Assembly (NCBI GenBank): GCA_017463485.1
Contig: JAFTPD010000013.1
Coordinates: 1 to 64,000 of the forward strand
Direction: 5' to 3'
Length of the DNA stretch: 64,000 nucleotides
From: Clostridia bacterium
GTDB taxonomy: Bacteria > Bacillota > Clostridia > Oscillospirales > CAG-272
The notes under the pieces were generated by a model, which had not been told where the DNA came from, did not search any database, and saw only the letters and a list, made by a program, of their open reading frames with translations. The position numbers were made by a program, and so were the translations under genes. Of the stretch, positions 5,036-50,460 are shown one piece after another; the first letter of the stretch is position 1; the number at the start of each line of letters is the position of its first letter.

Positions 5036-5232
5036 ATATGCGGGGTTTCACCCCACACCCCACAAACTTTCCCCAAAAGAAAGTTTGATCAAAGAACTTT
5101 ACCGCAAATATTTTTTGTTTAGATTTGTTCAGATGGTTACAACCGTAAACATTTCGATAACCCCCGTGGGTCCCTTACCCACTTGGTTATTTAATTAAAA
5201 AATGAAGCTTTTCGCCTTGGCGAAAAGCCTCC
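5036..5232 (+). repeat. modular palindromic repeat, copy A (sense of the purF-like gene)
   Basis: The element starts 8 bases after the stop codon. In order it carries a GGGGTTTCACCCC hairpin, the stem CAAACTTTC/GAAAGTTTG, GATCAAAGAACTTT, a TTTAGATTTGTTCAGATGG segment, the hairpin GTGGGTcccttACCCAC, and the hairpin GCTTTTCGCC/GGCGAAAAGC. It is followed by a short ATTATTC tandem tract (about 5237-5268). The same order recurs at five other sites in the window. Confidence 0.85.
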
Positions 5233-5265
5233 TCAATTATTCATTATTCATTATTCATTATTCAT

Positions 5266-5299
5266 CAAAAAGCTACCTGCCGAAGCAGGTAGCTTTTTT
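5266..5299. terminator. bidirectional terminator between convergent genes
   Basis: AAAAAGCTACCTGC-cgaa-GCAGGTAGCTTTTTT is a perfect stem with A and T tracts on both sides. It can end both the purF-like gene and the E2-like gene that converge here. Confidence 0.9.
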
Positions 5300-5302
5300 C
5301 GT

Positions 5303-6262
5303 CTATTCAATGTCCTCCACTACAACCTCGGGGCGATCGAGAAGGATTCCCGGACGCTCAACATACTTTTTGAGTATTTTGAACGCCGCTGCGTAATGGA
5401 AGCCGTCACAAATTCGCTCGTCGGTTACTACCTTGATGTCGATTTTGCGATAGGTATCACCCACGCCGCCTCGGCTGACGTGCGCGTCCATTTCTTTTTT
5501 GCCGTAAGAAATAAACAGCGGCAAATTTCCGAAATTATATATGTGATGGTATATCGGTTTGATTCCGAGCGAGCCCATGCTGGTAATTATCATACCGCCG
5601 TGGAAGGGGCTGACCTCAACCAGCGCCTTCGGCAGCTTGCCGTGGTAGTCCAGCCAGTTGAGCAGTCGCACCGTACCGCGAAGTATCGGGCGAGGCAGAT
5701 TTGCCAAGGTATTCGCCGTCTTATCAAAGTCGCTGTCAAGGTCTGCGTTTTTCTTGTTCTCCTCGACCACGGCGTTGAATTTATCGTACACGTCGTAAAC
5801 GGTATCGTCGGGCGCGAAATGCACCTTTATGCAGGTGTCGGGGGAATCCGCCGTCATTGCTTTTTTGATGGTCATGACTACCGTAATGTCGTTTCGTGCG
5901 TAAATGCGCTGTCCGTTGACGAATCTGTTAAGCGCAGGGCGCTGGGAAACAGTGCGGATATATGCCGCAAGAATTACGTGCAGGATGCTGAAATTGACAC
6001 GTCCGGACGCCACCATCTGCCGACAGAAATTCTCGGTTTCGGTAATATCAAACTCATCTGCGAACTGATTGAGTGCGTCGTTGCGGTCGGGCATTATGAA
6101 CGGCATAAACTTATTCATGGCATGAAGCGTGCGTATGTATCTGCCGTCAGGTCTGTCCTTGAATCTCTTTTTTCTCTTTGCGGGGAGTGGCGTGCGGGGA
6201 GTGTTTGGATTTTCCGCAGAAATGTTATATTCAATTCCGATATTTTGTGTTAACGTCGTCAT
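5303..6262 (-). CDS. 2-oxoacid dehydrogenase E2-like / CAT-fold acyltransferase, catalytic His missing
   Basis: This 319-residue protein resembles the catalytic domain of dihydrolipoyl acyltransferases and chloramphenicol acetyltransferases. Residues 220-255 (GGMIITSMGSLGI, then NFGNLPLFISYGKK) correspond to the trimer core of that fold. The active-site motif DHRxxDG appears as DERICDG at 281-287, so the general-base His is Glu282. There is no lipoyl or E1/E3-binding domain, and the first 40 residues are basic (KRKKRFKDRPDGR). It stands alone with its own promoter and a GAGGAG site. It may be a non-catalytic or altered acyltransferase; the substrate is unknown. Confidence 0.8.
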   Translation of the reverse strand: MTTLTQNIGIEYNISAENPNTPRTPLPAKRKKRFKDRPDGRYIRTLHAMNKFMPFIMPDRNDALNQFADEFDITETENFCRQMVASGRVNFSILHVILAAYIRTVSQRPALNRFVNGQRIYARNDITVVMTIKKAMTADSPDTCIKVHFAPDDTVYDVYDKFNAVVEENKKNADLDSDFDKTANTLANLPRPILRGTVRLLNWLDYHGKLPKALVEVSPFHGGMIITSMGSLGIKPIYHHIYNFGNLPLFISYGKKEMDAHVSRGGVGDTYRKIDIKVVTDERICDGFHYAAAFKILKKYVERPGILLDRPEVVVEDIE

Positions 6263-6291
6263 AGTCGCTCCTCGTATGTTTCGTTAAGAAT

Positions 6292-6320
6292 ATTATACAT
6301 TATATCTTATCGAAAATCAA
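6292..6320 (-). promoter_or_regulatory. promoter of the E2-like gene
   Basis: Minus-strand TTGATT (6315-6320) and TATAAT (6292-6297) are 17 bases apart, 30 bases upstream of the start codon. Confidence 0.75.
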
Positions 6321-6379
6321 GGGCTTTATTAATAAAGTTTACATTTGTTAATATTGCGGCGCAAAATTTTCATCCCCTC

Positions 6380-6408
6380 TTGATATTCACGCAAAACTGT
6401 GCTATAAT
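6380..6408 (+). promoter_or_regulatory. promoter of rnhA
   Basis: TTGATA (6380-6385) and TATAAT (6403-6408) are 17 bases apart, giving a leader of about 24 bases before the ATG at 6439. Confidence 0.8.
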
Positions 6409-6438
6409 TTTCGTAACGAATGATAGTTGAGGTTTTTT

Positions 6439-6876
6439 ATGAAGCACGTAGACATATATACCGACGGCGCTTGCCGCGGAAATCCCGGCGTTGGAGGATA
6501 CGGCGCTATTCTCGTATACAACGGCCATGAAAAGGAGCTTTCGGGCGGTGAGCGCGAAACCACCAACAATCGCATGGAATTGACAGCGGTTATCGTCGCG
6601 CTTTCCGCGCTAAAAGAGCCTTGCGACGTCACCCTTACCTCCGATTCAAAATACGTTACCGACGGTATTACCAAGGGCTGGGCGGCATCCTGGAAAAGCA
6701 AGGGATGGAAAAAAGCCGACAAGTCCCCTGCCCTCAACCCCGACCTTTGGGACGAGCTTTTGCGCCTCGTGGACTTCCATAACGTCACCTTCGTCTGGGT
6801 GCGCGGACACGCGGGTCACCCATATAACGAGCGCTGTGATGCCCTCGCAACAGCCTTTGCGGACAGTTTGAAATAA
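6439..6876 (+). CDS. rnhA: ribonuclease HI
   Basis: This 145-residue enzyme degrades the RNA strand of RNA-DNA hybrids such as R-loops and leftover primers. The RNase H fold is complete: [11 protein letters not shown] at the start with Asp9, NNRMELTA with Glu47, [11 protein letters not shown] with Asp69, the handle-type basic segment [10 protein letters not shown] at 85-94, the flexible VRGHAGH loop with His124, and ERCDALA with Asp134. All four acidic catalytic residues are therefore present. The length matches bacterial RNase HI. The ATG at 6439 is chosen because GAGG lies six bases upstream; an in-frame TTG at 6427 would overlap that site. Confidence 0.97.
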
Positions 6877-6906
6877 ATGAAGCTTTATTCATTTTTTATG
6901 AATCAC

Positions 6907-6946
6907 AAATGATGCGCCGAGCAATTTCTTGCTCGGCGCATCATTT
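6907..6946. terminator. strong hairpin terminator between rnhA and the esterase gene
   Basis: A perfect 18-bp stem (AAATGATGCGCCGAGCAA and its complement, 4-base loop) sits between the convergent rnhA stop and the stop at 6953. It is followed by ATCCTTTT on the plus strand and preceded by an A/T-rich tract. Confidence 0.85.
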
Positions 6947-6952
6947 ATCCTT

Positions 6953-8158
6953 TTAGCCTCTCCAATCGAAAGCCAATTCCGGCTCATCAAAGGGCGCTTT
7001 GAAATATTTGTCGCAAAGCGGCTCGCCCCACTTGACGTGGCGGATGACGTTTACAAGCATAGTCACGTCCTCCACCGTCTGGGCATGCCCACCGCTTCGG
7101 TAATACCACAAAAGATTTTCTTCCTTACCAAGGAATTTATAGACCTCCCCGGCGCCCATGGTAGTCTGCCACGAGCCGACGGGATTTGCCATAATATCAC
7201 TCGCCGCCTCGGACACGAAAAGCACTCTCGGCGCGACCATAGCCTTCAGGTAATGCGAATCAAAGGGCAGTTCGTCCTCTCTGCCTATATACTCTCTCAT
7301 ACCTTCACCAAGCCATGTGGGAAAATGATAAAAAATATTTGACAGCGGCTCGCTTTTCGCCTCGGTAACTCCGTCCTCGCATACAGCCTTGATATTAAGT
7401 CTGTAACAGCTACAGCCACCCGCACAGGTGGCGTTGGGATTGACTACCGTTGCGCGCTTATCAAGCGCACCCGCGAGGATAGCCACCTTACCTCCGCGCG
7501 AATGACCCGTAAAGGCGATACAGCTCATGTCCGCAAAGCCAAGCTGCTCAAGAGCATCAACGCATCTCGAATATCCCCATGCCCACGCGGATATCGCGCC
7601 GAACGGCACGTCGGGGTATACCTCTGCCAGAGGCCCGCGACGAATGCCGGAGTCAAAATCATCCGCAATCTCGCGAAGCATCTCCCGCTCCTCTGAGCCG
7701 CTGACCGCATTCCCTTCGTTGTAATGAGCTACGTCGGGAAAAAGCTCGGTGCGATTGAACAGCGCAAGGTTTATTTCGTTATTAAGAAAAGCGTCAAGAT
7801 ATTCCTTATCAAAGGCGTATTGGAAGCACAGATCTCCCGTAACGACGGTGGGCAGAGGTCTGTCTGTTGCCGCCTTGAACACCGTCATAGTAAAGCTGAC
7901 AGTCTTTTTCAGTGTGCCCGCCGTTATTTTATATACATTCGGTCTGCGTACTCCCGCAACGTACAGCGGTTCTACCTCAAACATTGTCGGCTCAGGCACT
8001 ACCGCGCCGTACTGAAGCTCAACCGCGCTCTTGAATATCTCTTCTCTGCGGCGCTCCCAATCTGCGGCGTCCTTAACTCGTCCACCGTCGTCAAATTCAA
8101 ACGGGTCGGGCAGCTTTCCTTTGAGGTTATACTCTGTTATCTGTATTTTCTTAAACAC
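6953..8158 (-). CDS. alpha/beta hydrolase related to glucuronoyl esterases (CE15-like)
   Basis: This 401-residue protein has an alpha/beta-hydrolase fold. The nucleophile elbow is GHSRGGK at 218-224 with Ser220, close to the G-C-S-R-x-G-K motif of CE15 glucuronoyl esterases. His358 in RSGGHAQT is the likely base, and Glu317 or Asp321 the acid. CE15 enzymes cut the ester between lignin and glucuronoxylan. No signal peptide is visible, so an intracellular role on imported material or another ester is likely. The start is a GTG with an ideal GGAGG eight bases upstream, overlapping the end of ade, so it is probably translated together with adenine deaminase. Confidence 0.82.
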   Translation of the reverse strand: MFKKIQITEYNLKGKLPDPFEFDDGGRVKDAADWERRREEIFKSAVELQYGAVVPEPTMFEVEPLYVAGVRRPNVYKITAGTLKKTVSFTMTVFKAATDRPLPTVVTGDLCFQYAFDKEYLDAFLNNEINLALFNRTELFPDVAHYNEGNAVSGSEEREMLREIADDFDSGIRRGPLAEVYPDVPFGAISAWAWGYSRCVDALEQLGFADMSCIAFTGHSRGGKVAILAGALDKRATVVNPNATCAGGCSCYRLNIKAVCEDGVTEAKSEPLSNIFYHFPTWLGEGMREYIGREDELPFDSHYLKAMVAPRVLFVSEAASDIMANPVGSWQTTMGAGEVYKFLGKEENLLWYYRSGGHAQTVEDVTMLVNVIRHVKWGEPLCDKYFKAPFDEPELAFDWRG

Positions 8159-9853
8159 TTATTTTTCCTCCGCGTACAGTGATTTCAAGCAGAATTCGTC
8201 TACATCAACAAGACCGAGGGTGGTCATTTTCAGCGACGGAATTACCGCAAGGCTGACAAACGCCATATTCATAAACGGCTCTACCGTCCTCGGTGCGCCG
8301 AGAGCGTAAACGGCCTGTCTCACCTCTGCGTTCTGTTTTGCGATCTCCTCGCCCGACAGCTCTGTCATAAGTCCGCCGACGGGTAGCGGCATTTCGGAAA
8401 TTATTTTTCCGTCCGCAACCACTACGTTTCCGCCGTTGCGGCAGATATGATTTGCCGCTGTTGCCATGTCCTCGTCGTTCGTACCTATGACAATGAGATT
8501 GTGCGAGTCGTGGGATACAGACGACGCAATAGCTCCGCGCCGAAGCCCAATTCCGTGGATAAATCCGACGCCCTTGTGGCCTGTGCCGTTGTGTCGTTCG
8601 ATAACGGCAAGCTTGATGATACCCCGCTCAACGTCAACGCCGTTGCTTTTGCTCCAATCAATATCGCATATCAGCTCACGGGTTATAAGCTGGCCGTGTA
8701 CCACGTCGATAACGCGACACACACTTCCTTTTTCTTCAATGTGAAAATCTGCCGCCGTGAGCTTTTTGACGTTAAAGGAGTTATACACCCGCTCCATCAA
8801 AGCAGCATCCACGGTAGGGGCTTTAATATCGGCGACCCTGCCGTTATCCACCACCTTGACGCCTGCCGAATATACGTCGCGCACAGCTACGGTGTCAAGG
8901 TCGTCAAGCACCAAAATGTCGGCTCTGTATGCGGGTGCTATCGCACCGACGTAGTCAAGTCCAAAGCACTGCGCCGCCTGAACCGTCGCCATCTGTATGG
9001 CGGTAACGGCAGATTTGCCCGCCCGTGCCGCCAAGCGGATAATATTATCAATATGTCCCTCAGCGGCGATATCTGCAGGGTGTCTGTCATCAGTCACAAG
9101 CAAGCAACGGTGGCTGTATTTTTCATCAAAAAGCGGTAGCAGAGCTTCAAGATTTCTTGCCGCCGTGCCTTGGCGTATCATTATCCATTGACCCTTTCTC
9201 AGCTTTTCTAACGCCTCGTCAAGAGTGGAGCATTCGTGGTCGCTCTTTATACCTGCGGACACGTATCTGTCAAGGTCGTGTCCCGACAAAAACGGAGCGT
9301 GACCGTCAACACCCTTGCCATGGGCGCGTGCGTCTGCGATTTTTTGAGCGACGTCACTGTCCCCCATAAGCACGCCGGGGTAATTCATCATCTCCGCAAG
9401 ACCTACCACGCGATCCTCGGCGTACAAGGGCTCAAGGTCAGCGGCGGTAAGCACTACGCCCGACTCGTCAAAAGGAGTTGCGGGAACGCAGGACGGCAGA
9501 GTAAAATACACGTTCATAGGCAAGCCGCGACTTGCTTCCAGCATATATTTTATGCCGTCAACGCCGCAGACGTTGGCTATTTCGTGCGGGTCGGCGACAA
9601 TGGAGGTTGTGCCGCAGGGCAAGCACATTTTCGCAAGCTCGACGGGGGTGAGCATAGTGCTTTCAATATGTATGTGACCGTCGATAAATCCGGGACAGAG
9701 ATACTTTCCGCTGACATCCTCGACGGTGTCGGCATCAGTATTGGCGTAATCTCCAACGCCAATGATCTTGCCGTCCTCAAAAAGCACGTCAGAGCGTTCA
9801 AGCTCGCCCGTAAATACGTTTACAACAGTTCCGTTTTTCAAAAGTGTTGTCAT
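8159..9853 (-). CDS. ade: adenine deaminase
   Basis: This 564-residue amidohydrolase should convert adenine to hypoxanthine and ammonia in purine salvage. Features of the AdeC family are visible: FIDGHIHIESTML with the metal ligands His60 and His62, GTTSIVADPHEIANV, GLAEMMNYPG, KGVDGHAPFLSG, SDHECS, and the C-terminal half with VSHDSHNLIVIGTND. The ATG at 9853 has GGAGGTG directly upstream and matches the usual N terminus (TTLLKNGTVVNVFTGE). A longer reading frame extends to 9991 but crosses repeat DNA and is not used. It is followed without a gap by the esterase gene. Confidence 0.95.
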   Translation of the reverse strand: MTTLLKNGTVVNVFTGELERSDVLFEDGKIIGVGDYANTDADTVEDVSGKYLCPGFIDGHIHIESTMLTPVELAKMCLPCGTTSIVADPHEIANVCGVDGIKYMLEASRGLPMNVYFTLPSCVPATPFDESGVVLTAADLEPLYAEDRVVGLAEMMNYPGVLMGDSDVAQKIADARAHGKGVDGHAPFLSGHDLDRYVSAGIKSDHECSTLDEALEKLRKGQWIMIRQGTAARNLEALLPLFDEKYSHRCLLVTDDRHPADIAAEGHIDNIIRLAARAGKSAVTAIQMATVQAAQCFGLDYVGAIAPAYRADILVLDDLDTVAVRDVYSAGVKVVDNGRVADIKAPTVDAALMERVYNSFNVKKLTAADFHIEEKGSVCRVIDVVHGQLITRELICDIDWSKSNGVDVERGIIKLAVIERHNGTGHKGVGFIHGIGLRRGAIASSVSHDSHNLIVIGTNDEDMATAANHICRNGGNVVVADGKIISEMPLPVGGLMTELSGEEIAKQNAEVRQAVYALGAPRTVEPFMNMAFVSLAVIPSLKMTTLGLVDVDEFCLKSLYAEEK

Positions 9854-9882
9854 TTTTACACCTCCAAAACAAATCGAGGGGA

Positions 9883-9960
9883 TGTCCGCTTCGCGGAGTG
9901 AAATACGCCTGCGGCGTGTGAAGTTGCTTCGCAGTGAAATTCGGCTTGCGCCGAGTGAAA
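9883..9960 (-). repeat. array of mini-hairpins with TTTCACT linkers
   Basis: Four short hairpins of 5-7 bp (such as TCCGCgaagCGGA and CGCCgcaGGCG) are joined by the linker TTTCACT or TTCACA on the minus strand. Each unit is about 18-20 bases. A similar array lies at 22272-22370. This one sits in the ade leader. Confidence 0.7.
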
Positions 9961-9990
9961 TGTTAAGTGCAAAAAAATTTGCACTTAACA
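9961..9990. repeat. perfect 13-bp palindrome
   Basis: TGTTAAGTGCAAA-aaaa-TTTGCACTTAACA is a perfect inverted repeat with A/T runs at its centre. It lies between the mini-hairpin array and repeat copy B. Confidence 0.75.
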
Positions 9991-9998
9991 TTATCGTT

Positions 9999-10233
9999 GC
10001 TTTTCGCCAAGGCGAAAAGCTTCATTTCTCAATTTAATAACCGAGTGGGTAAGGGACCCACGGGGGTTATAGAGATGTTCACGGTTGTCACCATTGTAAA
10101 CAAATCTAAATAAGAGATTTTTGCAGTAAAATTCTTTGATCCAAACTTTCTTTTGGGGAAAGTTTGGTGGGGCACGGGGTGAAACCCCACATATAAATTA
10201 GATCGGGGTATGGGGCAGAGCCCCAATATACTG
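9999..10233 (-). repeat. modular palindromic repeat, copy B (sense of the ABC gene)
   Basis: This copy begins at the stop codon of the ABC gene at 10234 and runs in the same direction. It has two GGGG-loop-CCCC hairpins, the CCAAACTTTC/GAAAGTTTGG stem, ATCAAAGAATTTT, TTTAGATTTGTTTACAATGG, the GTGGGTcccttACCCAC hairpin and the GCTTTTCGCC/GGCGAAAAGC hairpin (9999-10020). No separate promoter for ade is obvious in the gap 9854-10233. Confidence 0.85.
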
Positions 10234-12015
10234 CTATCCCTCAAACTGACTCTTATACAGCTTGGAGTAAAAGCCGCCGTGGGCGAGCAGCTCGTCGTGA
10301 GTTCCCTGCTCCTCGATACGGCCGTTATTCATAACGAGAATAACGTCAGCTTCGCGGATAGTTGAGAGTCTGTGGGCGACTATAAAGGAGGTCCTACCCT
10401 TCATCAGCGCCGCAAAGGCGTTTTGAATTTTAAGCTCGGTACGGGTGTCGATAGAGGACGTAGCCTCGTCGAGTATAAGCATTGGAGGCAAAGCGAGGAA
10501 CACTCGCGCTATGCACAAAAGCTGTTTTTGACCCTGCGACAGCGAGCCGCCGCCCTCACCGAGGACGGTATCGTAGCCGTTTGGCAGACGACGAATAAAG
10601 CCATCAGCGTGCGCCGCCTTTGCCGCGGCGATTATCTCCTCGTCAGTAGCATCCTCGCGTCCCATGGCGATATTTTCGCGCACGGTCGCGTTTTTCAGCC
10701 AAGTATCCTGGAGCACCATTCCGTAGCTTGAGCGGAGAGAATGTCGGGTGATATCCTTCACATTGTGTCCGCTGACCTCAATGCTTCCGCCGTCAACGTC
10801 GTAAAAGCGCATGAGCAGATTGATAACCGTGGTCTTTCCGCAGCCCGTAGGCCCTACGATAGCCACACGCTGACCCTCGCAAAGCTCAAGATTGAGATCC
10901 TTTATCAGCTCGCGGTCGGGAGTATAGGAAAATTCAACGTCGCGAAGAACTACCTTTCCGTCCACGTCTCCGTGCGAAAGCACCGCCGCGTCGGGAGCGT
11001 CGGGGGTCTCGGCGGGAGCGTCCATCAGCTCAAACAGCCTTGCCGCGCATGCCAGAGCGTTTTGCAGCTCGGCTATAACACCCGAAATTTCATTAAACGG
11101 CTTGGTGTACTGGTTTGCATACGTCAAAAACGTGGTAAGCTGTCCCACGGTAAGCGACACGCCGCCCGTTGCCACGCTCATCAAAGCGCCTATCAGAGCA
11201 ACGCCCGCGTATACGAGGTTGTTTACGAATCTGGTCGACGGATTAGTCAAGGACGAGAAGAACGTAGCACGGCGGGAGCAGTCCCCCAGCCGTCCGTTTA
11301 TCTCGTCAAACTCGGCAAGGCACTCGTCCTCGCGAGAGAACGCCGCCACTACCTTGTGGTTGCCTATCATCTCGTCAATATACGCCGCCTGCTCTGCGCG
11401 TGTTTCGGACTGCTTTTGGGACAGAGCGAAGGTGCGCTTTGCAATAAAGGACGCAACGAACAGCGACAGAGGCGTTATCACTACGACCCACAGTGCCAAG
11501 GGCGCGTTTATTTTTATCATAAAGACAAGCGTTCCGAGAATAGTGGATATTCCCATAAAGAACTGAGAAAAGCCCATGAGCAGTCCGTCGGTAAACTGAT
11601 CCACGTCGGACACGACGCGGTTGACCGTATCTCCAACGGGGTGTCTGTCAAGATAGGACAGCGGCAGTCTTTGAATATGCTCAAATGCGTCACGGCGGAG
11701 TCTGCGTGCAATACCGAAGGTGATTCGGTTGTTGCAGACGTTCATCAGCCATTGTGCAAACGTGGTGACTATAACGATAACCACCGCGCGGACGAGCATG
11801 GGGCGCAGAGCGTCAAAATCCACCCTTCCCGCCTCGATGATGATATCCATCGCTTTGCCTAACATTACGGGGAAATACAAGGAGCGCGTTACCGCTACGA
11901 GCGCGAGATTGAGTGAGAGCAATACAAGCCACTTGTAGTGCTTCAGATATTTCAGCACCTTAAAAAGCGTTGCAAGCGTGGATGCGGATTTTTTAGTCTT
12001 GGGAGTGTTACTCAC
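10234..12015 (-). CDS. ABC exporter half-transporter with a canonical NBD (heterodimer subunit)
   Basis: This 593-residue protein has a type-I ABC exporter membrane domain (about 30-330, six hydrophobic segments) and one ATPase domain. Walker A is GPTGCGKT at 388-395, the signature is LSQGQ at 492-496, Walker B is LILDE with catalytic Glu517, and the H-loop has His548. Its ATG overlaps the upstream ABC gene by four bases, so the two are translationally coupled. That partner has a degenerate ATPase site, so the pair should form a heterodimeric exporter of the LmrCD/TM287-288 or multidrug/lipid type. The substrate is unknown. Confidence 0.93.
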   Translation of the reverse strand: MSNTPKTKKSASTLATLFKVLKYLKHYKWLVLLSLNLALVAVTRSLYFPVMLGKAMDIIIEAGRVDFDALRPMLVRAVVIVIVTTFAQWLMNVCNNRITFGIARRLRRDAFEHIQRLPLSYLDRHPVGDTVNRVVSDVDQFTDGLLMGFSQFFMGISTILGTLVFMIKINAPLALWVVVITPLSLFVASFIAKRTFALSQKQSETRAEQAAYIDEMIGNHKVVAAFSREDECLAEFDEINGRLGDCSRRATFFSSLTNPSTRFVNNLVYAGVALIGALMSVATGGVSLTVGQLTTFLTYANQYTKPFNEISGVIAELQNALACAARLFELMDAPAETPDAPDAAVLSHGDVDGKVVLRDVEFSYTPDRELIKDLNLELCEGQRVAIVGPTGCGKTTVINLLMRFYDVDGGSIEVSGHNVKDITRHSLRSSYGMVLQDTWLKNATVRENIAMGREDATDEEIIAAAKAAHADGFIRRLPNGYDTVLGEGGGSLSQGQKQLLCIARVFLALPPMLILDEATSSIDTRTELKIQNAFAALMKGRTSFIVAHRLSTIREADVILVMNNGRIEEQGTHDELLAHGGFYSKLYKSQFEG

Positions 12016-13733
12016 AGCTCATCACCCCCTTTGAATTGCGACCGGTGTATCTCGCGGTATACGTCGCAGGTCTTGAGCAGATCCTCGTGCTTGCCGATAC
12101 CGCATATTCTGCCGTCGTCCAACACCACTATCTTGTCGGCGTGGCGCACGGATGCCGTGCGTTGGGTTATGATAAACACGGTGGGCTCGTGATCTAAACG
12201 CTTGATAGCGCCACGCAGAGCCGCGTCGGTAACGTAATCAAGCGCCGAGGAGCTGTCGTCCAGAATAAGCAGCTCGGGGCGTCTTACAAGTGCGCGGGCG
12301 ATAGTAAGTCTTTGCTTCTGACCGCCCGAAAAATTACGTCCACCCTCCTCGACTACGGCATCAAGCCCGCCATCCTTTGAGCGAACGAAATCCTCCGCCT
12401 GTGCATCACGCAAAGCCGCCCAAAGCTGATCGTCGGTAGCGTTTTCGTTGCCCCACAAGAGATTTGAGCGAATAGTTCCGCGGAAAAGCACCGCCTTTTG
12501 CGGAACAGTTCCTATTCTTTCGCGCAGGTCGGCAGGCTCGTAGGAATTGACGTCTTTGCCAAACACGCGCACACTGCCCTCGCTCGCCTCATAAAATCTC
12601 GGAATAAGATTTACAAGCGAGGTCTTGCCCGAGCCTGTTCCTCCGATAATGCCCACGGTCTCGCCGCGCTCTACCGTAAGGTTGATATCCGACAGCGCCG
12701 CCTCGCCGCCCTCGGCGTAGGTCATCGACACGCCCTCAAAGCTGACGGCACAGCCGTCGTCGGGAGCTTCGTCAGTGGCAATATCCATGCCCACGGGAGT
12801 ATCAAGCACAGCGCCCACGCGGTTTCCGCAAGCCACTGCCTTGGTGACGAGGAAAATGGTGTCCGCCAGCTTTACAAGCTCTACAAGAATCTGCGTCATA
12901 TAGTTCACCAGTGCCACGAGCGCACCGCGTGACAGCGCACCGCCGTCAACGCGGATTGCGCCGATCCAGATAAGCGCTATGGTCGCAAGATTGAGCAAAA
13001 GATAGGTCAGCGGATTCATCAATGCGGACAAGCGTCCCGCCGTATTCTGAAGCAGACTGTGCTCGCGGCTTATTTTTCTGAAGCCGTCGATCTCGTCATC
13101 CTCCTTGCAAAAGGCGCGGACGACGCGGACTCCGTGCAGATTTTCCCGCGTAGCCGACGTTACGCCGTCAAGCTTTGCCTGCACCTTTTTGTAAAGCGGA
13201 ATGCCGCCGAGGATTATTCCGAAAACGACTATCGCAAGCACGGGTACGGTAACGGCAAAGATCCACGCCGCCGACGGATCGATAACAAATGCAAGTATGA
13301 CCGCGCCAAAAACGATTATAGGCGAGCGCAAAAACAGTCGCAGAGTCATATTTACTCCGCTTTGAAGCTGATTTACGTCGCTTGTCAAGCGCGTTATCAT
13401 TGTGGACACACCTACCTTGTCCGTCTGCGCGTAGCTGAATCCCTGCAAATGCGCAAACAGGTCGCGGCGAAGCCGTGCCGCACTTCCCGTAGCCGCGCGC
13501 GCCGCAAAATACTGAGCGCAAAGAGCGCAGGCAAGTCCTACTATCGCCAAGGCGCACAAAACAAGGGTGAGCCTTATGATAAGCGGCTTGTCCCCTCCGC
13601 CGATTCCGTCGTCAATGATGCTCGCCACAACGAGCGGGACGAGCAGATCAAAGCAGGCTTCAAGCAGCTTGAAAAGAGGAGCAAGCACGCTCTCCCTCGG
13701 GTATTCCTTTAAAAATCTGAAAAATACCTTCAT
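12012..13733 (-). CDS. ABC exporter half-transporter with a degenerate NBD
   Basis: This 573-residue protein has a six-helix membrane domain followed by an ATPase domain. Walker A is GGTGSGKT at 364-371 and the signature is FSGGQ at 468-472. Walker B reads LILDD, with Asp493 in place of the catalytic Glu, and the H-loop has Gln524 in place of His. These two changes mark the non-hydrolysing site of heterodimeric exporters. The partner is the coupled downstream gene, which keeps Glu and His. An AAGGA site precedes the ATG, and no promoter clear enough to list was found in the short gap to asd. Confidence 0.93.
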   Translation of the reverse strand: MKVFFRFLKEYPRESVLAPLFKLLEACFDLLVPLVVASIIDDGIGGGDKPLIIRLTLVLCALAIVGLACALCAQYFAARAATGSAARLRRDLFAHLQGFSYAQTDKVGVSTMITRLTSDVNQLQSGVNMTLRLFLRSPIIVFGAVILAFVIDPSAAWIFAVTVPVLAIVVFGIILGGIPLYKKVQAKLDGVTSATRENLHGVRVVRAFCKEDDEIDGFRKISREHSLLQNTAGRLSALMNPLTYLLLNLATIALIWIGAIRVDGGALSRGALVALVNYMTQILVELVKLADTIFLVTKAVACGNRVGAVLDTPVGMDIATDEAPDDGCAVSFEGVSMTYAEGGEAALSDINLTVERGETVGIIGGTGSGKTSLVNLIPRFYEASEGSVRVFGKDVNSYEPADLRERIGTVPQKAVLFRGTIRSNLLWGNENATDDQLWAALRDAQAEDFVRSKDGGLDAVVEEGGRNFSGGQKQRLTIARALVRRPELLILDDSSSALDYVTDAALRGAIKRLDHEPTVFIITQRTASVRHADKIVVLDDGRICGIGKHEDLLKTCDVYREIHRSQFKGGDEL

Positions 13734-13777
13734 TCTATTTCCTTACAAATTTTCGTATTTTTACCACATGGTTACAA

Positions 13778-13806
13778 CGCCGCAGGCATTGGATCTGCCT
13801 GCGGCG
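13778..13806 (-). terminator. hairpin behind asd
   Basis: CGCCGCAGGC pairs perfectly with GCCTGCGGCG across a 9-base loop, 9 bases past the asd stop. The following T-run is poor (GTTGTAAC), so it may be a weak terminator or a processing stem. Confidence 0.6.
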
Positions 13807-13814
13807 CTCGTGTG

Positions 13815-14900
13815 TTAATCAAAATATCCGCGTCTGTAAAGCAGCTCTGCGATAAGCACAGCCCCGCCTGCCGCGCCGCGAAGGGTGTTGTGAGAAAGTC
13901 CCACGAATTTGTAGTCAAAGCAGCTACCCGCTACGTCCTCGCGCAGACGTCCTACCGTTACGCCCATGCCGCCGTAAATGTCACGGTCAAGAGCCGCCTG
14001 AGGACGGTTATCCTCCTCAAAGTAGGTAACGAACTGTGCGGGAGCGTGAGGAAGCTCAAGCTCCTGAGGCTGACCGCGGAAATTCTTCCACGCATCAAGT
14101 ATCTCTTCCTTGGTAGGCTTGTTTTCAAACTTTACGAACACAGCCGCAGTATGGCCGTCGGTAACGGGCACACGGATGCACTGGGTGGTGATCAGAGGCG
14201 CTGCCGCCGGAGCGATCTTACCGTCCTCGACCTTACCCCAAACGCGCAGAGGCTCCTGCTCCGATTTTTCTTCCTCGCCGCCGATATATGGAATTACGTT
14301 GTCGATCATCTCGGGCCACTCGTTAAATGTCTTTCCTGCGCCCGAAATTGCCTGATAAGTGGTAGCAACGATAAGGGTAGGCTTGAACTTGAGCAGCGGA
14401 GTAAGCGCGGGAACGTAGGACTGAATGGAGCAGTTGGGCTTTACGGCAATAAATCCGCGCTTTGTACCGAGGCGCGCTCTCTGTGCCGCTATAACCTCAA
14501 GATGCTCGGGGTTGATCTCCGGAATTACCATGGGAACGTCCTCCGTCCAGCGGTGCGCGCTGTTGTTGGACACAACAGGGATCTCGGCGCGTGCGTACTT
14601 TTCCTCCAGCGCCTTTATCTCGTCCTTTTTCATATTGACAGCGCAGAAAACGAAGGAGCAGAGCTTGCCCATCTCCTCAATATTTTCCGCGTCAAGAACT
14701 ATCATCTTTTTGTACTTTTCGGGCATGGGGGTCTTCATCTTCCAACGACCTCCCACAGCCTCCTCGTAGGTCTGTCCCGCAGAGCGAGCAGATGCCGCAA
14801 GAGCGGTTACCTCAAAATAAGGGTGATCTTCAAGCAAGGTCAGAAAACGCTGACCTACCATACCCGTAGCGCCTACGACGCCGACATTCATCTTTTTCAT
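13815..14900 (-). CDS. asd: aspartate-semialdehyde dehydrogenase (archaeal/fungal-type)
   Basis: This 361-residue enzyme reduces aspartyl phosphate to aspartate semialdehyde, the branch point to Lys/DAP, Thr and Met. The Rossmann turn is GVVGATGMVG at 7-16. The active-site cysteine is Cys157 in VKPNCSIQ. VPVTDGHTAAVFV and the C-terminal glycine-rich LRGAAGGAVL follow. Length and motifs fit the archaeal/eukaryotic branch rather than the E. coli type. ATG at 14900 is preferred over 14921 because AAGGAG lies seven bases upstream. It has its own promoter and no lysine-pathway genes next to it. Confidence 0.94.
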   Translation of the reverse strand: MKKMNVGVVGATGMVGQRFLTLLEDHPYFEVTALAASARSAGQTYEEAVGGRWKMKTPMPEKYKKMIVLDAENIEEMGKLCSFVFCAVNMKKDEIKALEEKYARAEIPVVSNNSAHRWTEDVPMVIPEINPEHLEVIAAQRARLGTKRGFIAVKPNCSIQSYVPALTPLLKFKPTLIVATTYQAISGAGKTFNEWPEMIDNVIPYIGGEEEKSEQEPLRVWGKVEDGKIAPAAAPLITTQCIRVPVTDGHTAAVFVKFENKPTKEEILDAWKNFRGQPQELELPHAPAQFVTYFEEDNRPQAALDRDIYGGMGVTVGRLREDVAGSCFDYKFVGLSHNTLRGAAGGAVLIAELLYRRGYFD

Positions 14901-14940
14901 ATATGTTCTCCTTTTTATCAAATCAAAGTATTACCTTTAA

Positions 14941-14969
14941 ATTTTATCACACTTTTCCCTAAATTGCAA
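14941..14969 (-). promoter_or_regulatory. promoter of asd
   Basis: Minus-strand TTGCAA (14964-14969) and TAAAAT (14941-14946) are 17 bases apart, about 40 bases upstream of the ATG. Confidence 0.75.
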
Positions 14970-15051
14970 GAGCTATTTGAATTTTTCAGAGCGAATACTC
15001 TCGTCATGCCAAGAAATTTTTTGTATAATACTTACAATAATCATAATATTC

Positions 15052-15080
15052 TTGACAATCGCCCCACTTTGTGATATATT
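15052..15080 (+). promoter_or_regulatory. promoter of tmk
   Basis: TTGACA (15052-15057) and TATATT (15075-15080) are spaced by 17 bases, 31 bases before the ATG at 15112. Confidence 0.8.
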
Positions 15081-15111
15081 TATTATACTACAAAAAGTGA
15101 GGTTTCGTACC

Positions 15112-15759: not shown

Positions 15760-15787
15760 ATTTTATCGACACGCTTTCACAGCACTA

Positions 15788-15838
15788 TACAAAAAACGAC
15801 CGTCACTCTGTCGCAAAGGCACGGAGCGTCGGTTTTTT
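15788..15838 (+). terminator. terminator of tmk
   Basis: An imperfect hairpin (ACCGTCACTCTGT against GGCACGGAGCGTCGGT) is followed by TTTTTTT about 50 bases after the stop codon. Confidence 0.7.
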
Positions 15839-15874
15839 TGATTGTAAAAAAGCATTGATGTCGAAGGATTTTTC

Positions 15875-15903
15875 TTGACTCAAAGGAATAAATTTGCTAT
15901 AAT
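15875..15903 (+). promoter_or_regulatory. promoter of the LRR lipoprotein gene
   Basis: TTGACT (15875-15880) and TATAAT (15898-15903) are 17 bases apart, 42 bases upstream of the ATG. Confidence 0.8.
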
Positions 15904-15945
15904 CCGAATACACAATCAAACTTTAAAAGTCAAGGAGATCGGAAA

Positions 15946-16731: not shown

Positions 16732-16745
16732 TATTGAATGATTAA

Positions 16746-16771
16746 ACGGGCGGCTCGTGCGAGCCGCCCGT
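16746..16771. terminator. bidirectional terminator between convergent genes
   Basis: ACGGGCGGCTC-gtgc-GAGCCGCCCGT is a perfect 11-bp GC-rich stem. It is followed by CCTTTTTATTT and preceded by an A/T-rich tract, between the LRR lipoprotein and the GH13 gene. Confidence 0.85.
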
Positions 16772-16783
16772 CCTTTTTATTTG

Positions 16784-22080: not shown

Positions 22081-22265
22081 ACTATATGGGGCTCTGCCCC
22101 ACGCCCCGATCTAATTGTATATGGGGTTTCACCCCACACCCCACAAACTTTTTTGAAAGAAAGTTTGATCAAAGAACTTTGCTGACAAATTTTCTTGTTT
22201 AGATTTGTTAAGATGGTTACAGCCAAAGCCATCTATATAACCCTCGTGGGTCCCTCACCCACTGC
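22081..22265 (+). repeat. modular palindromic repeat, copy C (sense of the DUF4830-like gene)
   Basis: The copy starts 18 bases after the stop codon and has two GGGG-loop-CCCC hairpins. Its central stem has a C-to-T change that keeps a wobble pair (CAAACTTT..AAAGTTTG). GATCAAAGAACTTT, TTTAGATTTGTTAAGATGG and the hairpin GTGGGTccctcACCCAC follow. Confidence 0.85.
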
Positions 22266-37403: not shown

Positions 37404-37577
37404 TGTAATATGGGGCTCCGCCCCAAACCCCGCAAGCCCGATTATATATGGGGCTCCGCCCCAAACCCCGCAAAACTTTCTTGAAAGAAAGTTTTGATCA
37501 AAGAACTTCAATGCAAGAGTTTCTTGTTCAGATTTGTTTAGATGGTTATAGCCAATAACATTTCTATAATTTTTGCG
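37404..37577 (+). repeat. modular palindromic repeat, copy D core (sense of priA)
   Basis: It starts 8 bases after the priA stop. Two GGGGCTCCGCCCC hairpins come first. The central stem has an extra A-T pair (CAAAACTTTC/GAAAGTTTTG), a compensated change. GATCAAAGAACTT, TTCAGATTTGTTTAGATGG and AACATTTCTATAATTTTT follow. Instead of the GTGGGT hairpin it continues into a GGGCGA-ended element. Confidence 0.85.
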
Positions 37578-46884: not shown

Positions 46885-48489
46885 ATGAAAGTTGCAATAA
46901 TTCAGCCTTATTATTCTTTTGACGAAAAGGACACCGCCCGTTGCTATGACGAGATGGTCGCCCTTATTGACAAGTGCGACGACAGCCTTGACCTTATCGT
47001 GCTGCCCGAATACAGCGACGTCCCCGCGGATCAGTCGTCAAAAGCGAACTATCACGCCATGGTTGCAAAATACAACGACGACATCATGCAAAAGGCGAAA
47101 GACACCGCCCGCAGATGCAACGCTATCGTTTGCGTCAACGCGGCAGAACGAACAGCGAGCGGCATACGCAACACCACCCACGTGCTTGACAGGCAGGGAA
47201 ATTGCGTGGGCAAATATTTCAAGGCTCACCCCGCGCCCAGCGAAGTCAAAACGGAGGCGCAGGGCGGCAACGAGCTTGACGTCAGCTACAGCTACGATTT
47301 TGCCGAGCCTTACGTCGTCGAGCTTGAAGGTATCCGCTTCGGCTTTATGACCTGCTACGATTTCTATTTCTATGAGAATTTTGCCACCCTCGCGCGCAAG
47401 GACGTGGATATTATTATCGGTTGCTCTCACCAGCGCACCGACACTCACGAGGCGCTTTCTATCATCAACCGCTTCCTTTGCTACAACACAAACGCATACC
47501 TTGTGCGCTCTGCCGTTTCTCTCGGCGAGGGCTCCAAAATATGCGGCTGCAGCTGCATTATCGCACCCGACGGAACGGTTATTGAGGATATGAAGAGCCG
47601 TATCGGAATTGCTGTTGCCGACATTGATCCGCACGCAAAATACTACAAGGCGGCAGGCTTTAAGGGCGCGCTCAAATCCCACTATCAGTATATTGAGGAG
47701 GGTCGCCGCCCTTGGCTTTACCGAAACGGCGGTGCGTCGGTTGTTAAATTTGAGGACGTTATGCCCTACCCCCGCATCTGCGCTCACCGTGGATTTAACA
47801 CTGTCGCTCCCGAGAACACATTGCCTGCGTTTGGTGCGGCGGTGGCACTCGGAGCTGAGGAGATCGAATTTGATCTGTGGTCTACCAAGGACGGCGTTAT
47901 CGTGTCCTGCCACGACGACACGCTGGACCGCGTCAGCGACGGCACGGGCAAGATCTGCGACCGTACATACGAGGAGCTGCTCGCGCTTGATTTCGGAGCT
48001 AAGCACGGCGACAAGTTCAAGGGACTCAAAATCTGCACTTTTGAGGAGATCCTTCAAAAGTTCGCAGGCAGAGTTATTATGAACATTCACGTCAAAATCT
48101 GGGACTATGACGTAGACCCCATGTTCGAGCAGATCGTGGGACTTATCCGCAAGTACGACTGTGAAAAGCACGTGTACTTTATGACGTCAAACGACAAGCG
48201 CGTCGAGGAACTTCGCGAATTTGCTCCCGACATGAAGGTCTGCCTCGGTTGGGACGGCAACAAAGATCCCATGTCCATGGTCGACCGCGCAATAGCGTTG
48301 GGAGCGTACAAGATCCAGCTCTTCAAACCATACTTCACACAGGAAACGGTAGACACCGCACACGCAAACGGAATACTCTGCAACGTCTTCTGGTCAGACG
48401 ACCCCGACGAAGCCCGAGCCTTCCACAAAATGGGTATCGACACCATCCTTACAAACGATTACCTCACTATTGCAAATGCATTGAAGTGA
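46885..48489 (+). CDS. fusion of a nitrilase-family amidohydrolase and a glycerophosphodiester phosphodiesterase
   Basis: This 534-residue protein joins two enzymes. Residues 1 to about 275 are a carbon-nitrogen hydrolase with the full triad: Glu42 in LPEYSD, Lys113 in GKYFKAHP and Cys157 in FMTCYDFYF. Residues about 295-534 are a GDPD-type TIM barrel: AHRGFNTVAPENTLPAF with His301 and Arg302, Glu310-Asn311, EIEFDLW with Glu328 and Asp330, and SCHDDTLDRVSDGTG with His343. Both sites look intact. No signal peptide is seen, so it should be cytoplasmic. It may cut an amide and a phosphodiester in the same compound or in linked steps, for example of an amide-linked glycerophospho compound; this is inference. 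It has its own promoter and no enzyme neighbours. Confidence 0.88.
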   Translation: MKVAIIQPYYSFDEKDTARCYDEMVALIDKCDDSLDLIVLPEYSDVPADQSSKANYHAMVAKYNDDIMQKAKDTARRCNAIVCVNAAERTASGIRNTTHVLDRQGNCVGKYFKAHPAPSEVKTEAQGGNELDVSYSYDFAEPYVVELEGIRFGFMTCYDFYFYENFATLARKDVDIIIGCSHQRTDTHEALSIINRFLCYNTNAYLVRSAVSLGEGSKICGCSCIIAPDGTVIEDMKSRIGIAVADIDPHAKYYKAAGFKGALKSHYQYIEEGRRPWLYRNGGASVVKFEDVMPYPRICAHRGFNTVAPENTLPAFGAAVALGAEEIEFDLWSTKDGVIVSCHDDTLDRVSDGTGKICDRTYEELLALDFGAKHGDKFKGLKICTFEEILQKFAGRVIMNIHVKIWDYDVDPMFEQIVGLIRKYDCEKHVYFMTSNDKRVEELREFAPDMKVCLGWDGNKDPMSMVDRAIALGAYKIQLFKPYFTQETVDTAHANGILCNVFWSDDPDEARAFHKMGIDTILTNDYLTIANALK

Positions 48490-48494
48490 GGGCT

Positions 48495-48630
48495 TTATAT
48501 GGGGCTCTGCCCCAAGCCCCGCAAACTTTCTTGAAAGAAAGTTTGATCAAAGAACTTTCCTGCAATTTGTTTTTGTTTAGATTTGTTTGGATGGTTACAG
48601 CCAAAAACATTTCTATAATTTTTGCGGCGT
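48495..48630 (+). repeat. modular palindromic repeat, copy E core (sense of the fusion gene)
   Basis: It starts 6 bases after the stop codon with one GGGGCTCTGCCCC hairpin. The perfect stem CAAACTTTC-ttgaaa-GAAAGTTTG, GATCAAAGAACTTT, TTTAGATTTGTTTGGATGG and AACATTTCTATAATTTTT follow. As in copy D it continues into the GGGCGA-ended element. Confidence 0.85.
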
Positions 48631-48633
48631 TTC

Positions 48634-48727
48634 GGGCGAACACAGTTCGCCCCTATGTGGTAAATAAGATGATTTCGGTTGTTTTCAAGCAAAAATCTTT
48701 ATACCGTAGGGCGGCCTGCGGTCGCCC
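48634..48727 (+). repeat. second copy of the GGGCGA-ended 95-bp element
   Basis: It matches 37585-37679 along its length, including GGGCGAACACAGTTCGCCCC at the left and GCCTGCGGTCGCCC at the right, with a few substitutions and one missing G. A GCTTTTCGCC/GGCGAAAAGC hairpin follows at about 48745-48766. Confidence 0.8.
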
Positions 48728-48803
48728 GTTCCAATGAAATGACGCTTTTCGCCTTGGCGAAAAGCGTCATCAATTTTCCATTTTAAACTTTCAATTTTCA
48801 ATT

Positions 48804-48842
48804 AAAAAAGTCGCTGCAGAATTTCTCTGCGGCGACTTTTTT
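48804..48842. terminator. bidirectional terminator before rubrerythrin
   Basis: AAAAAAGTCGCtGCAGA pairs with TCTGCgGCGACTTTTTT across a short loop, between the converging fusion gene and rubrerythrin gene. Confidence 0.88.
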
Positions 48843-48843
48843 A

Positions 48844-49380
48844 TCAGTAGTTCTCTTTTCTTACCTCAAAGTAGCTCTGGGGATGAGCACATACGGGGCA
48901 AACGAGAGGTGCTTTCTTACCCATAACGAGATGTCCGCAGTTGCGGCACTCCCACATGGTCATCTCTGCCTTTTCAAATACTGCCTTCATCTCTACGTTA
49001 TTCAGCAGCTTGCGGTAACGCTCCTCGTGGGTTTTCTCAATAGCCGCCACCATACGGAATTTGATAGCAAGAGCGGTAAAGCCCTCCTCCTCCGCTTCCT
49101 TTGCGAATCTGTCGTACATATCTGTCCACTCGTAGTGCTCGCCCTCGGCTGCAGACAAAAGATTTGCCGCCGTGTCACCAAGTGCGCCCAGCTCCTTGAA
49201 CCACATTTTTGCGTGCTCCTTTTCGTTGTTGGCGGTAGCCTCGAAAATAGCCGCGATCTGCTCGTAGCCTTCCTTTTTAGCTACGGATGCGAAGTAGGTG
49301 TACTTGTTTCTTGCTTCGCTCTCTCCCGAAAAGGCGGTTCTGAGATTTTGCTCTGTTTTTGTTCCCTTAAGTTCTGGCAT
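48844..49380 (-). CDS. rubrerythrin
   Basis: This 178-residue protein reduces hydrogen peroxide in anaerobes. The N-terminal ferritin-like four-helix part has the diiron ligands in [26 protein letters not shown] and [14 protein letters not shown]. The C-terminal rubredoxin-like part has two Cys pairs, CRNCGHLV and CPVCAHP. Order and length are those of classical rubrerythrin. It lies 25 bases downstream of the DtxR-type regulator, so iron or manganese supply and peroxide defence are linked in one operon. Confidence 0.96.
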
Positions 49381-49405
49381 GGTTGTTTTCCTTTCTTATA
49401 TAAAT

Positions 49406-49783
49406 TTAATTTTTGTCCGAAATATGCGCCTTGATGCGTTCAAACGTTTCGTCACTGATAACGTGCTCTACCTTGCAGGCGTCACTGTCGGCAACGGACG
49501 CGCTGACCCCAATGCTCTCAAAAAAGAGGGAGAGGATTCGGTGTCGCTCATAGACCTTGGTGGCGCGCTCCCGCCCCTCGTCGGTAAGCTCAATGTAGCC
49601 GTTTTCGTCCACTGTCACCATTCCGTCGGCTTTCAGCACACCAAGAGCGCGGCTGATGCTGGGCTTGGAATAGCCCGTGTGATGCACCACGTCAATGGAG
49701 CGCACCTGCCCGAGCTTGCCCTGCAGAACGAGGATACTTTCAAGATACATCTCTCCCGATTCCTGAATATTGCTTTTGCTCAC
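49406..49783 (-). CDS. DtxR/MntR-family metal-dependent transcriptional regulator
   Basis: This 125-residue protein has the DtxR winged helix (EMYLESILVLQGKLGQVRSIDVV in parts, then SKPSISRALGVLKADGMV). The metal-binding dimerisation domain follows (RHRILSLFFESIGVS, DACKVEHVISDETFERI). It lacks the C-terminal SH3-like domain of DtxR and is therefore closer to MntR in size. It probably represses iron or manganese uptake genes and may control its own operon with rubrerythrin. A GGAGCGAC site precedes the ATG. Confidence 0.92.
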   Translation of the reverse strand: MSKSNIQESGEMYLESILVLQGKLGQVRSIDVVHHTGYSKPSISRALGVLKADGMVTVDENGYIELTDEGRERATKVYERHRILSLFFESIGVSASVADSDACKVEHVISDETFERIKAHISDKN

Positions 49784-49824
49784 AGCTGTCGCTCCTTTCG
49801 TGTTTTTTGAATCTTACTACATAT

Positions 49825-49853
49825 AATATACCACACAATCCCCGCCAAATCAA
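49825..49853 (-). promoter_or_regulatory. promoter of the dtxR-rubrerythrin operon
   Basis: Minus-strand TTGATT (49848-49853) and TATATT (49825-49830) are 17 bases apart, 42 bases before the ATG. Confidence 0.7.
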
Positions 49854-49988
49854 GTGTTTTTTGAAAATTTTATCCCTTGGGAGTCGCGCCGCGCTTCGCG
49901 TGTGTGAAAATTGAGAATTGAAAATGGAAAATTGATGAAGCTTTTCACCTTGGCGAAAAGCTTCATTTCTCAATTAAATATCGCAACT

Positions 49989-50030
49989 CACCTCATCCAC
50001 CATTTTCAGGGGCGAATGGTGGATGAGGTG
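49989..50030. repeat. perfect 16-bp stem-loop followed by a T-run
   Basis: CACCTCATCCACCATT pairs perfectly with AATGGTGGATGAGGTG across a 10-base loop; CTTTTTTG follows on the plus strand. No plus-strand gene ends here, so it is more likely a repeat module than a gene terminator. A GCTTTTCAC/GGCGAAAAGC hairpin lies beside it (about 49939-49960). Confidence 0.7.
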
Positions 50031-50062
50031 CTTTTTTGATATCAAAAAAATTAATATACAAA

Positions 50063-50100
50063 CGGCAGGACATCATTTGCTTGCAAATGATGTCCTGCCG
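50063..50100. repeat. perfect 18-bp palindrome
   Basis: CGGCAGGACATCATTTGC-tt-GCAAATGATGTCCTGCCG is an exact inverted repeat. Its centre ATTTGC..GCAAAT resembles the palindrome near 37925, so both may belong to one module type. Confidence 0.8.
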
Positions 50101-50129
50101 CCGACGAAAAAATTATGATTTTCTCGTGC

Positions 50130-50280
50130 GAACAGTCGGGGACGTCTGTCCCTACAATTTTGAAAAATTTTTCGTTATTGTATAACAGAAAGGTAATATA
50201 TACCTTTTGGCGTTGAAAACAACGAAAAATTCTAAAATGGTAGGGGACGGCGGCTTTCGCAGAAAGCGGCTCGACTGTCC
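50130..50280. mobile_element. second, altered copy of the MITE-like element
   Basis: The left end (GAACAGTCGGGGACGTCTGT) and the interior from TTTTTCGTTATT to AACAACGAAAAATTCT match the element at 37739-37876. The right end differs: it has a CGGCTTTCGCAGAAAGC hairpin inserted before CGACTGTCC. This suggests end exchange or decay. Confidence 0.7.
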
Positions 50281-50289
50281 CGCAATATT

Positions 50290-50460
50290 GAATAAATTAT
50301 AGAAGCATCTTTGGCTATCACCATCCAAACAAATTTAAGCAAAAACAAATTGCAGGAAAGTTCTTTGGACCAAACCTTTCTTTTGGGGAAAGGTTTGTGG
50401 GGCGTGGGGTGAAACCCCACATATAATTAAGTCGGGGTGTGGGGCAAAGCCCCGCATATA
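50290..50460 (-). repeat. modular palindromic repeat, copy F core (sense of the PFOR gene)
   Basis: It begins right after the PFOR terminator. It has two GGGG-loop-CCCC hairpins, and the central stem is CAAACCTTTC/GAAAGGTTTG, an insertion or change compensated on both strands. CAAAGAACTTTCCTGCAATTTG, TTTGTTTGGATGG and CTTCTATAATTT follow. It is followed by the MITE-like element. The whole gap 49860-50460 is repeat DNA without a gene. Confidence 0.85.

Follow-up and report, generated by a model that had tools for sequence, protein, structure and literature searches.

What is the repeat that recurs six times between the genes of one Clostridia contig, and is it held constant as DNA or as RNA? 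The DNA examined is a 64,000-nucleotide stretch (the window) of Clostridia bacterium (CAG-272), GCA_017463485.1, JAFTPD010000013.1:1-64,000, forward strand; the 1.74 Mb genome to which it belongs is called the own genome below. An earlier note on the window described six copies (A–F) of a modular palindromic repeat, and the positions of the six cores, their module order, and the variants of the central stem that it gave for copies A–F were all borne out; GTTTGATCAAAGAACTTT, with up to three mismatches, occurs five times in the window vs. 0.02 times expected. We lean slightly toward reading the repeat, from its sequence, as a dispersed non-coding intergenic DNA element that is composed of "hairpin plus third segment" units and would be capable of folding back into a triplex. 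Established are the compensated stems, a rule that relates the third segment to the stem before it, the wide occurrence of the element, and its place beside gene boundaries; for triplex formation itself, the sequence suggests a chance a little over even.

Two kinds of unit are recognized. Unit A has the form GGGG-loop-CCCC-nn-CCCC (hairpin A and a third block). In unit B, strand 1 (a purine block, C or CC, and then a block rich in T) leads through a small loop into strand 2, after which a turn of about one or two bases, usually A, connects to a third segment. This segment (GATCAAAGAAC) comes behind stem B and varies with the stem in parallel order, copy by copy. Where strand 1 is purine, A is answered by T and G by C in the third segment; the C is kept at the purine-to-pyrimidine step; and beyond it T is answered by A and C by G. 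Past the short turn, the order of the third segment is that of the stem base pairs from base to loop. Examples from relatives, given as strand 1 and then the stretch behind the stem, are CCAAGGAAACTTTTTG with AACCTTCAAAAAC, CCGGAACCTTTCTTG with CCTCCAAAGAAC, and CACGAGAAACTTTTTG with GCTCTTCAAAAAC. Among 76 cases, the T-run and the A-run match as TTTT with AAAAA in 26, TTTCT with AAAGAA in 23, and TTCT with AAGAA in 13; in unit A, CCCT accompanies GGGA in seven of nine scored cases and CCCC accompanies GGGG in 72 of 82. This third-segment rule, absent from the earlier note, was found by comparing copies, and it is, as far as sequence can tell, the rule that an intrastrand foldback triplex obeys.

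The association was scored against permuted pairs of stem and third segment. In a first test (114 of 140 hairpin rows parsed, 79 distinct pairs, 2000 permutations), the third segment matched its own strand 1 as a parallel complement with z = 6.1–6.6, and as the pyrimidine of each pair with z = 5.7–7.0, with none of the 2000 permutations as high in either case. A fresh set of 41 pairs came from loci fetched after the idea had been written down (109 of 140 rows parsed); with the direction of the rule fixed beforehand, and its "minus one" form written after those loci were known, the mean shared suffix was 3.71 vs. 1.83 (z = 10.7, 0/5000). A replicate for which the formula was fixed, and which is therefore a clean repeat, led from 40 places to 37 hairpins, of which 29 were parsed, and gave 16 unseen pairs (3.00 vs. 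1.67, z = 4.4, 0/5000); there, the reversed complement scored z = 3.0 and the purine block itself z = 0.9. Where the order could be decided, parallel prevailed over reversed by 16 to 3 with six ties in the fresh set and by 5 to 0 with three ties in the replicate, or in 21 of 24 decided pairs across both sets (two-sided p = 0.0003). Finally, in 18 equal-length copies aligned in a register (skip at position 8) that was picked after inspection, 66 of 72 cells agree vs. 47.4 when shuffled (z = 6.5, 0/20000), and shifts by one or two columns give z = −0.5, 2.1, 0.5, and 0.1. That alignment was drawn from 24 rows with a 14-base arm, from which duplicates (L057, L309, L303), three-base loops (L043, L279), and L125 were dropped; its stems are perfect by selection, and their 100% pairing is circular and was excluded as evidence.

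A broader test across 662 flank sides (z = 18.9) was rejected as inflated, since many of its loci had been chosen with the motif. Without motif-bearing flanks it yields z = 6.6, and with stems clustered as well z = 3.0; in this reduced form a plain reverse complement does equally well (z = 5.9 and 3.6). Another family of hairpins, whose third block is a homopurine mirror (for example GCCGCTTTTTTCTCTTC-acc-GAAGAGAAAAAAGCGGC-AAAAAAGAGAAG), shows a near-perfect fit to the rule (L060, L080, L085, L102, L123, L131, L171), and a homopurine mirror repeat in several loci, GAAGAGAAAAAAG-CGGC-AAAAAAGAGAAG, fits it too and is a distinct repeat.

The stems themselves are preserved. When folded as single-stranded DNA, each of the six copies forms stem B and either one or two GGGG hairpins (z = −4.2 to −5.7 vs. 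shuffled sequence), with the third segment mostly unpaired. RNA folding gives z = −2.7 to −4.3, and the best RNA fold gives a GGGG run a different partner in copies B, D, and E. Of 27 parsed copies in the own genome (a 28th, L016, was unparsed), 26 have a mismatch-free stem B, with nine distinct strand-1 sequences that include CAAACTTTC, CAAATCTTTC, CAAACCTTTC, CAAGCCCTTTC, and CAATCCCTTTC. In hairpin A, four of eight pairs predicted by RNAalifold are changed on both sides in some copy; this prediction missed stem B, where the alignment was out of register. No such cell was found in the 3′ hairpin AGATGG..CCATCT. The compensated changes that the earlier note invoked are therefore present in hairpin A and stem B, but only in this 5′ half of the element, and it is supported that some force preserves the structure. 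An antiparallel hairpin between strand 2 and the third segment was considered and rejected: it is possible by eye in A-rich types and is lost in GG and GGG types. Template switching in quasi-palindromes, a mutational process that could match both arms without selection, would yield compensated stems without any function; we regard this origin as very improbable, because template switching copies reverse complements, whereas the third segment runs parallel and the reversed order loses by 21 to 3.

In the window, hairpin A of copy A (GGGGTTTCACCCC), placed by the DNA fold and a reading of the sequence, lies at 5042..5054 on the forward strand; by sequence reading, the third block of this hairpin (ACACCCC) follows at 5055-5061. 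Stem B CAAACTTTC/GAAAGTTTG (5063-5071, 5079-5087), again from both fold and sequence, and the third segment ATCAAAGAAC, read from the sequence (5088-5097), together span 5063..5097. The 3′ half of this copy (5131..5182, forward strand) contains an AGATGG..CATTTC module, which is devoid of compensated changes, and a terminator-like GTGGGTCCCTTACCCAC hairpin (5166-5182). The 5′ part of copy B (10131..10224, reverse strand) has two hairpins A (10212-10224, 10176-10188), stem B CCAAACTTTC/GAAAGTTTGG (10158-10167, 10141-10150), and the third segment ATCAAAGAAT (10131-10140). Copy C (22088..22177, forward) also has two hairpins A (22088-22100, 22123-22135), a stem B with one G-T wobble (22144-22152, 22159-22167), and a third segment at 22168-22177. 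In copy D (37412..37506, forward), the two hairpins A (37412-37424, 37450-37462) are identical, and are followed by stem B CAAAACTTTC/GAAAGTTTTG (37471-37480, 37487-37496) and the third segment (37497-37506). Copy E (48501..48555, forward) comprises hairpin A (48501-48513) with third block GCCCC (48516-48520), stem B (48522-48530, 48537-48545), and the third segment (48546-48555), and copy F (50360..50453, reverse) two hairpins A (50441-50453, 50406-50418), stem B CAAACCTTTC/GAAAGGTTTG (50388-50397, 50371-50380), and the third segment GTCCAAAGAAC (50360-50370).

How might such a unit fold? The third segment of unit B would bind strand 1 where that strand is purine, in the pyrimidine motif (T.A-T and C.G-C); past the C its partner would be strand 2, where that strand is purine, in the purine motif (A.A-T and G.G-C), giving unit B an alternate-strand fold overall. 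Stem and third segment would then stay matched because the three-stranded fold, rather than the sequence, is conserved. The structure is expected to be transient, able to stall polymerases and to destabilize spacers, as with the known TM/PIT repeats, and the element would be tolerated beside gene ends but neither in divergent promoters nor within genes; the host may also make use of it.

Bacterial repeats of similar design go by the names PIT, BoxC, and TM-ECO; PIT repeats are reportedly the subject of papers of 2000 and 2002. What is said here of these repeats follows the account by Holder et al. (2015; PMC4666352). Like the element, they combine a hairpin with a third block in parallel order and are short, intergenic, and dispersed. 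In that paper, TM repeats are described as intergenic and without strand bias, as forming a stable triplex when isolated, as lacking promoter or terminator activity, and as marking unstable loci (PMC4666352), and this tie of TM-ECO to unstable loci is also suspected for the element. Unlike TM-ECO as described there (PMC4666352), which is G/C-rich with one homopurine strand, the element switches its purine strand inside stem B, and its stem and third segment vary together between copies; by eye, a sequence likeness to TM-ECO is not apparent.

Membership under the published ITxF definition was also considered. Its trait of a parallel third block by triplex pairing rules is found in the copies as a family and, in individual copies, in part; its trait of one homopurine strand with a stem of 6–15, loops of 1–6, and at most one mismatch is not found in the element. 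The ITxF search rule, re-coded from print for both strands and for classes II and III (class I, whose third block contains T, lies outside it), gives eight motifs in the window vs. 0–2 in four shuffles. It flags copy E (48526-48554; seven triads, one mismatch), and in copy D a six-triad stretch that uses other bases. Copies miss the rule because their loops are mostly too long or different and because the purine strand of stem B changes halfway, which the four classes disallow. The element works like a known kind, yet it is no member of that kind under the published definition.

Other known systems resemble the element in single respects. H-DNA engages both strands of a homopurine duplex. H-DNA and mirror repeats have mirror symmetry in common with the element (strand 2 vs. 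the third segment), but the element is one strand that would fold twice over a mixed tract. In designed alternate-strand triple helices, the third strand crosses between purine tracts at a purine-pyrimidine step; these are laboratory designs with the same tract crossing, whereas the element is a candidate for a natural repeat of this type. Rfam families share conserved hairpins with the element, but in a search of the whole window no family reached its gathering score over the core, and a relaxed search of 48400-50600 returned only weak matches, far under each family's gathering score. Listing-level surveys of the literature on Faecalibacterium/Ruminococcaceae palindromic repeats, mirror repeats, and alternate-strand triplexes, and on triplex repeats in Firmicutes (a query that was swamped), gave no description of the element; its motif letters had no match in papers, such strings being possibly unsearchable.

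Several observations weigh against a foldback triplex. Competing relations also score: in the 79 pairs identity gives z = 2.7–5.0, reverse z = 2.2–4.6, and reversed pyrimidine order z = 0.2 when end-anchored and 3.6 by local alignment, and in the fresh 41 pairs z is 6.8 for the reversed complement and 6.3 for the purine block itself. The last two relations score partly because many purine blocks read alike in both directions. All permutation z values ignore the shared descent of the copies. In perfect hairpins at large, in unselected sequence, the rule has z = −0.4 on 108 flank sides, and it is rejected as a general property of hairpins. There are single exceptions (L316, L324, L343, L353), and the ITxF rule leaves copies A, B, C, and F unflagged. 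Copies A, B, and F, with C-rich loops and a short T-rich block (TTTC), match the third-segment rule in part only, which is part of the reason why we hold the chance of triplex formation near even. Footprinting in living Escherichia coli found no stable triplex at TM repeats (PMC4666352). With these points taken in, the scales stand level for the proposal that the copies represent a natural class of strand-switching (alternate-strand) intrastrand triplex that none of the four published classes covers, whose duplex and third strand co-evolve (triple covariation), and which is spread through one bacterial family, with the same 27-base core in other phyla.

The setting of the element bears on the choice between DNA and RNA. 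All six window cores start 0–33 bases past a stop codon and in the sense of that gene, and the names that the earlier note gave to the upstream genes agree with Pfam (ABC, DUF4830, PriA domains, CN_hydrolase plus GDPD, and PFOR domains), except that the purF-like gene, while compatible, has as its sole Pfam support a weak GATase_7 match. For 30 of 36 copies in the own genome, neighboring genes were predicted with a codon model trained on the window; the other six are two at contig edges (L027, L028) and four that are weak, at an edge, or unparsed, and sister-genome rows lacking hairpin A were excluded as spurious. In 29 of the 30 copies, 6–58 bases separate the GGGG end from a predicted gene boundary, and at the 30th, L007, the gene finder apparently missed a gene. 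Distances to the gene end depart strongly from random placement, and the constant trait is a GGGG end within 60 bases of a gene boundary. The orientation is less uniform than the note's "always 3′ of a gene and in its sense," which holds in the window and for 24 of the 30 copies genome-wide. Thirteen of these 24 are in convergent spacers, where both orientations meet a stop codon, and are therefore uninformative. The six other copies comprise five with the GGGG end 29–58 bases from a gene start, reading away from the gene, and L007, which is doubtful. In the 17 same-direction spacers, the element runs with the genes 11 times and against them six times (five certain, plus L007), a bias that is not significant (two-sided binomial p = 0.33, or 0.14 with L007 counted as sense).

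A transcribed 3′-UTR RNA element that ends or protects mRNA, perhaps with unit A and the purine block of unit B forming a short RNA triplex, draws on the 24 sense copies past a stop codon, on the stability of the RNA folds, and on the finding that divergent spacers and gene interiors contain none of the 30 copies. We nevertheless consider it unlikely, given the ratio of only 11 to 6 in same-direction spacers. The terminator-like sites listed near the six copies all fall outside the stretch that opens with hairpin A and closes with the third segment, being in 3′ modules or further off, and a terminator was rejected as an explanation since no listed site overlaps the conserved part. In addition, the AAAGAAC part of the third segment, beside the T-rich part of strand 1, would follow the purine motif, which according to Holder et al. 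cannot form in RNA (PMC4666352), so that the purine-motif part would not form in a transcript. Of the earlier proposal, the structure kept by some force stands, but the RNA role is not well supported. The weak sense bias, together with a purine-motif part said to be impossible in RNA, favors constraint at the DNA level.

The element is dispersed and unevenly so. The own genome holds 36 blastn matches to copy E, and not the hundreds that the earlier note extrapolated from the window, which is a dense patch. Contigs C6, C7, C17, and C18 contrast in copy density with C10 and C21: the copy-rich contigs carry seven copies in 158 kb, six in 109 kb, six in 73 kb (the window contig), and three in 33 kb, and the copy-poor ones two in 223 kb and two in 415 kb. 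Two copies with much sequence in common lie at contig starts (G000:C7:1-93, G000:C3:2-72), which suggests that the repeat may break assembly. A search with copy E matched 25 of 97 genomes, the own genome included; matches beyond it and its sister genome (G009) nearly all stop near base 63, after CAAAGAACTTT, and the complete 3′ half is present in these two genomes alone. When the query is a full-length relative, 89 of 245 family genomes in 37 of 71 genera match, again including the own genome, and the 3′ half of the window copies differs from that of full-length relatives. Within the genus, 11 of 12 genomes (the own genome among them) have the core pattern, but a stricter pattern that also requires the third block of hairpin A occurs in only five of 394 genomes of the order. 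A 27-base core is found in at least 118 stretches beyond; among the 80 matches listed, labels include Oscillospiraceae, Gemmiger, Pseudoflavonifractor, and Phascolarctobacterium faecium, as well as Rikenella, Acetobacteraceae, and Deltaproteobacteria, the last three being metagenome bins in which binning errors are possible. In genome G031 (L046, 1521-1700), a CAAAGAACTTTACTCAAAAAAGTTTTG unit occurs in a short tandem array.

Dispersal also raises the possibility of a mobile element of miniature inverted-repeat (MITE) or REP type, with hairpins read by a putative transposase and a third segment that serves as an enzyme guide or cleavage-site feature instead of a triplex strand. Besides their dispersal and the two copies at contig ends, four full-length relatives (L036, L038, L048, L057) have an inverted copy of the same module at their opposite end, and in the sister genome the spacer of copy F lacks the element. 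That spacer holds unrelated DNA, however, and neither a clean empty site nor a target duplication was seen there, while copies D, E, and ten others (L003, L004, L010, L011, L016, L019, L020, L024, L029, L226) can be aligned to the sister genome without interruption. BOX, REP, and MITE-type repeats are likewise modular, palindromic, intergenic, and dispersed, but the element differs from them in its third-segment rule and in that target duplication is not demonstrated; 29 of 30 own copies are without the REP tags GTAG or CGTC from hairpin A to the third segment (the exception, L030, has CGTC inside hairpin A). Mobility alone does not explain the position-by-position match along the whole stem, and we doubt that it accounts for the element.

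Comparison with the sister genome provides a further view of these spacers. The spacer of copy A has a very diverged element there, and the window contains one large break in gene order, a segment (5029-22435) that ends at copies A and C and has parts on sister contigs C5, C54, and C35 in changed order; the C5 junction has no element. The flanks of L017 map to two places in opposite sense. This pattern of breaks appears to resemble the instability of TM loci, in one comparison without a control group.

Further features were noted in the window. Two Rfam Gut-1 RNA matches (9896-9966, forward; 22267-22337, reverse) adjoin copies B and C on the 3′ side, in the opposite orientation to the element. 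A second dispersed repeat is located near copies D and F (37738-37844, 50129-50235; 107 bases, 95% identity), and the same spacers hold further small repeats (GCTTTTCGC..GCGAAAAGC and GGGCGACCTGCGGTCGCCC). A tetrahydrofolate (THF) riboswitch (30995-31095, forward) and a T-box leader (58076-58322, reverse) are also present.

Bacterial intrastrand triplexes are known as sequence motifs and folded oligonucleotides, but Holder et al. found no stable triplex in living cells (PMC4666352). If the co-change of stem and third segment is what it appears to be, evolution itself would report on a three-stranded structure, and the natural variants of the element would constitute a ready panel for triplex pairing rules, strand switching included, in the tube and in cells.

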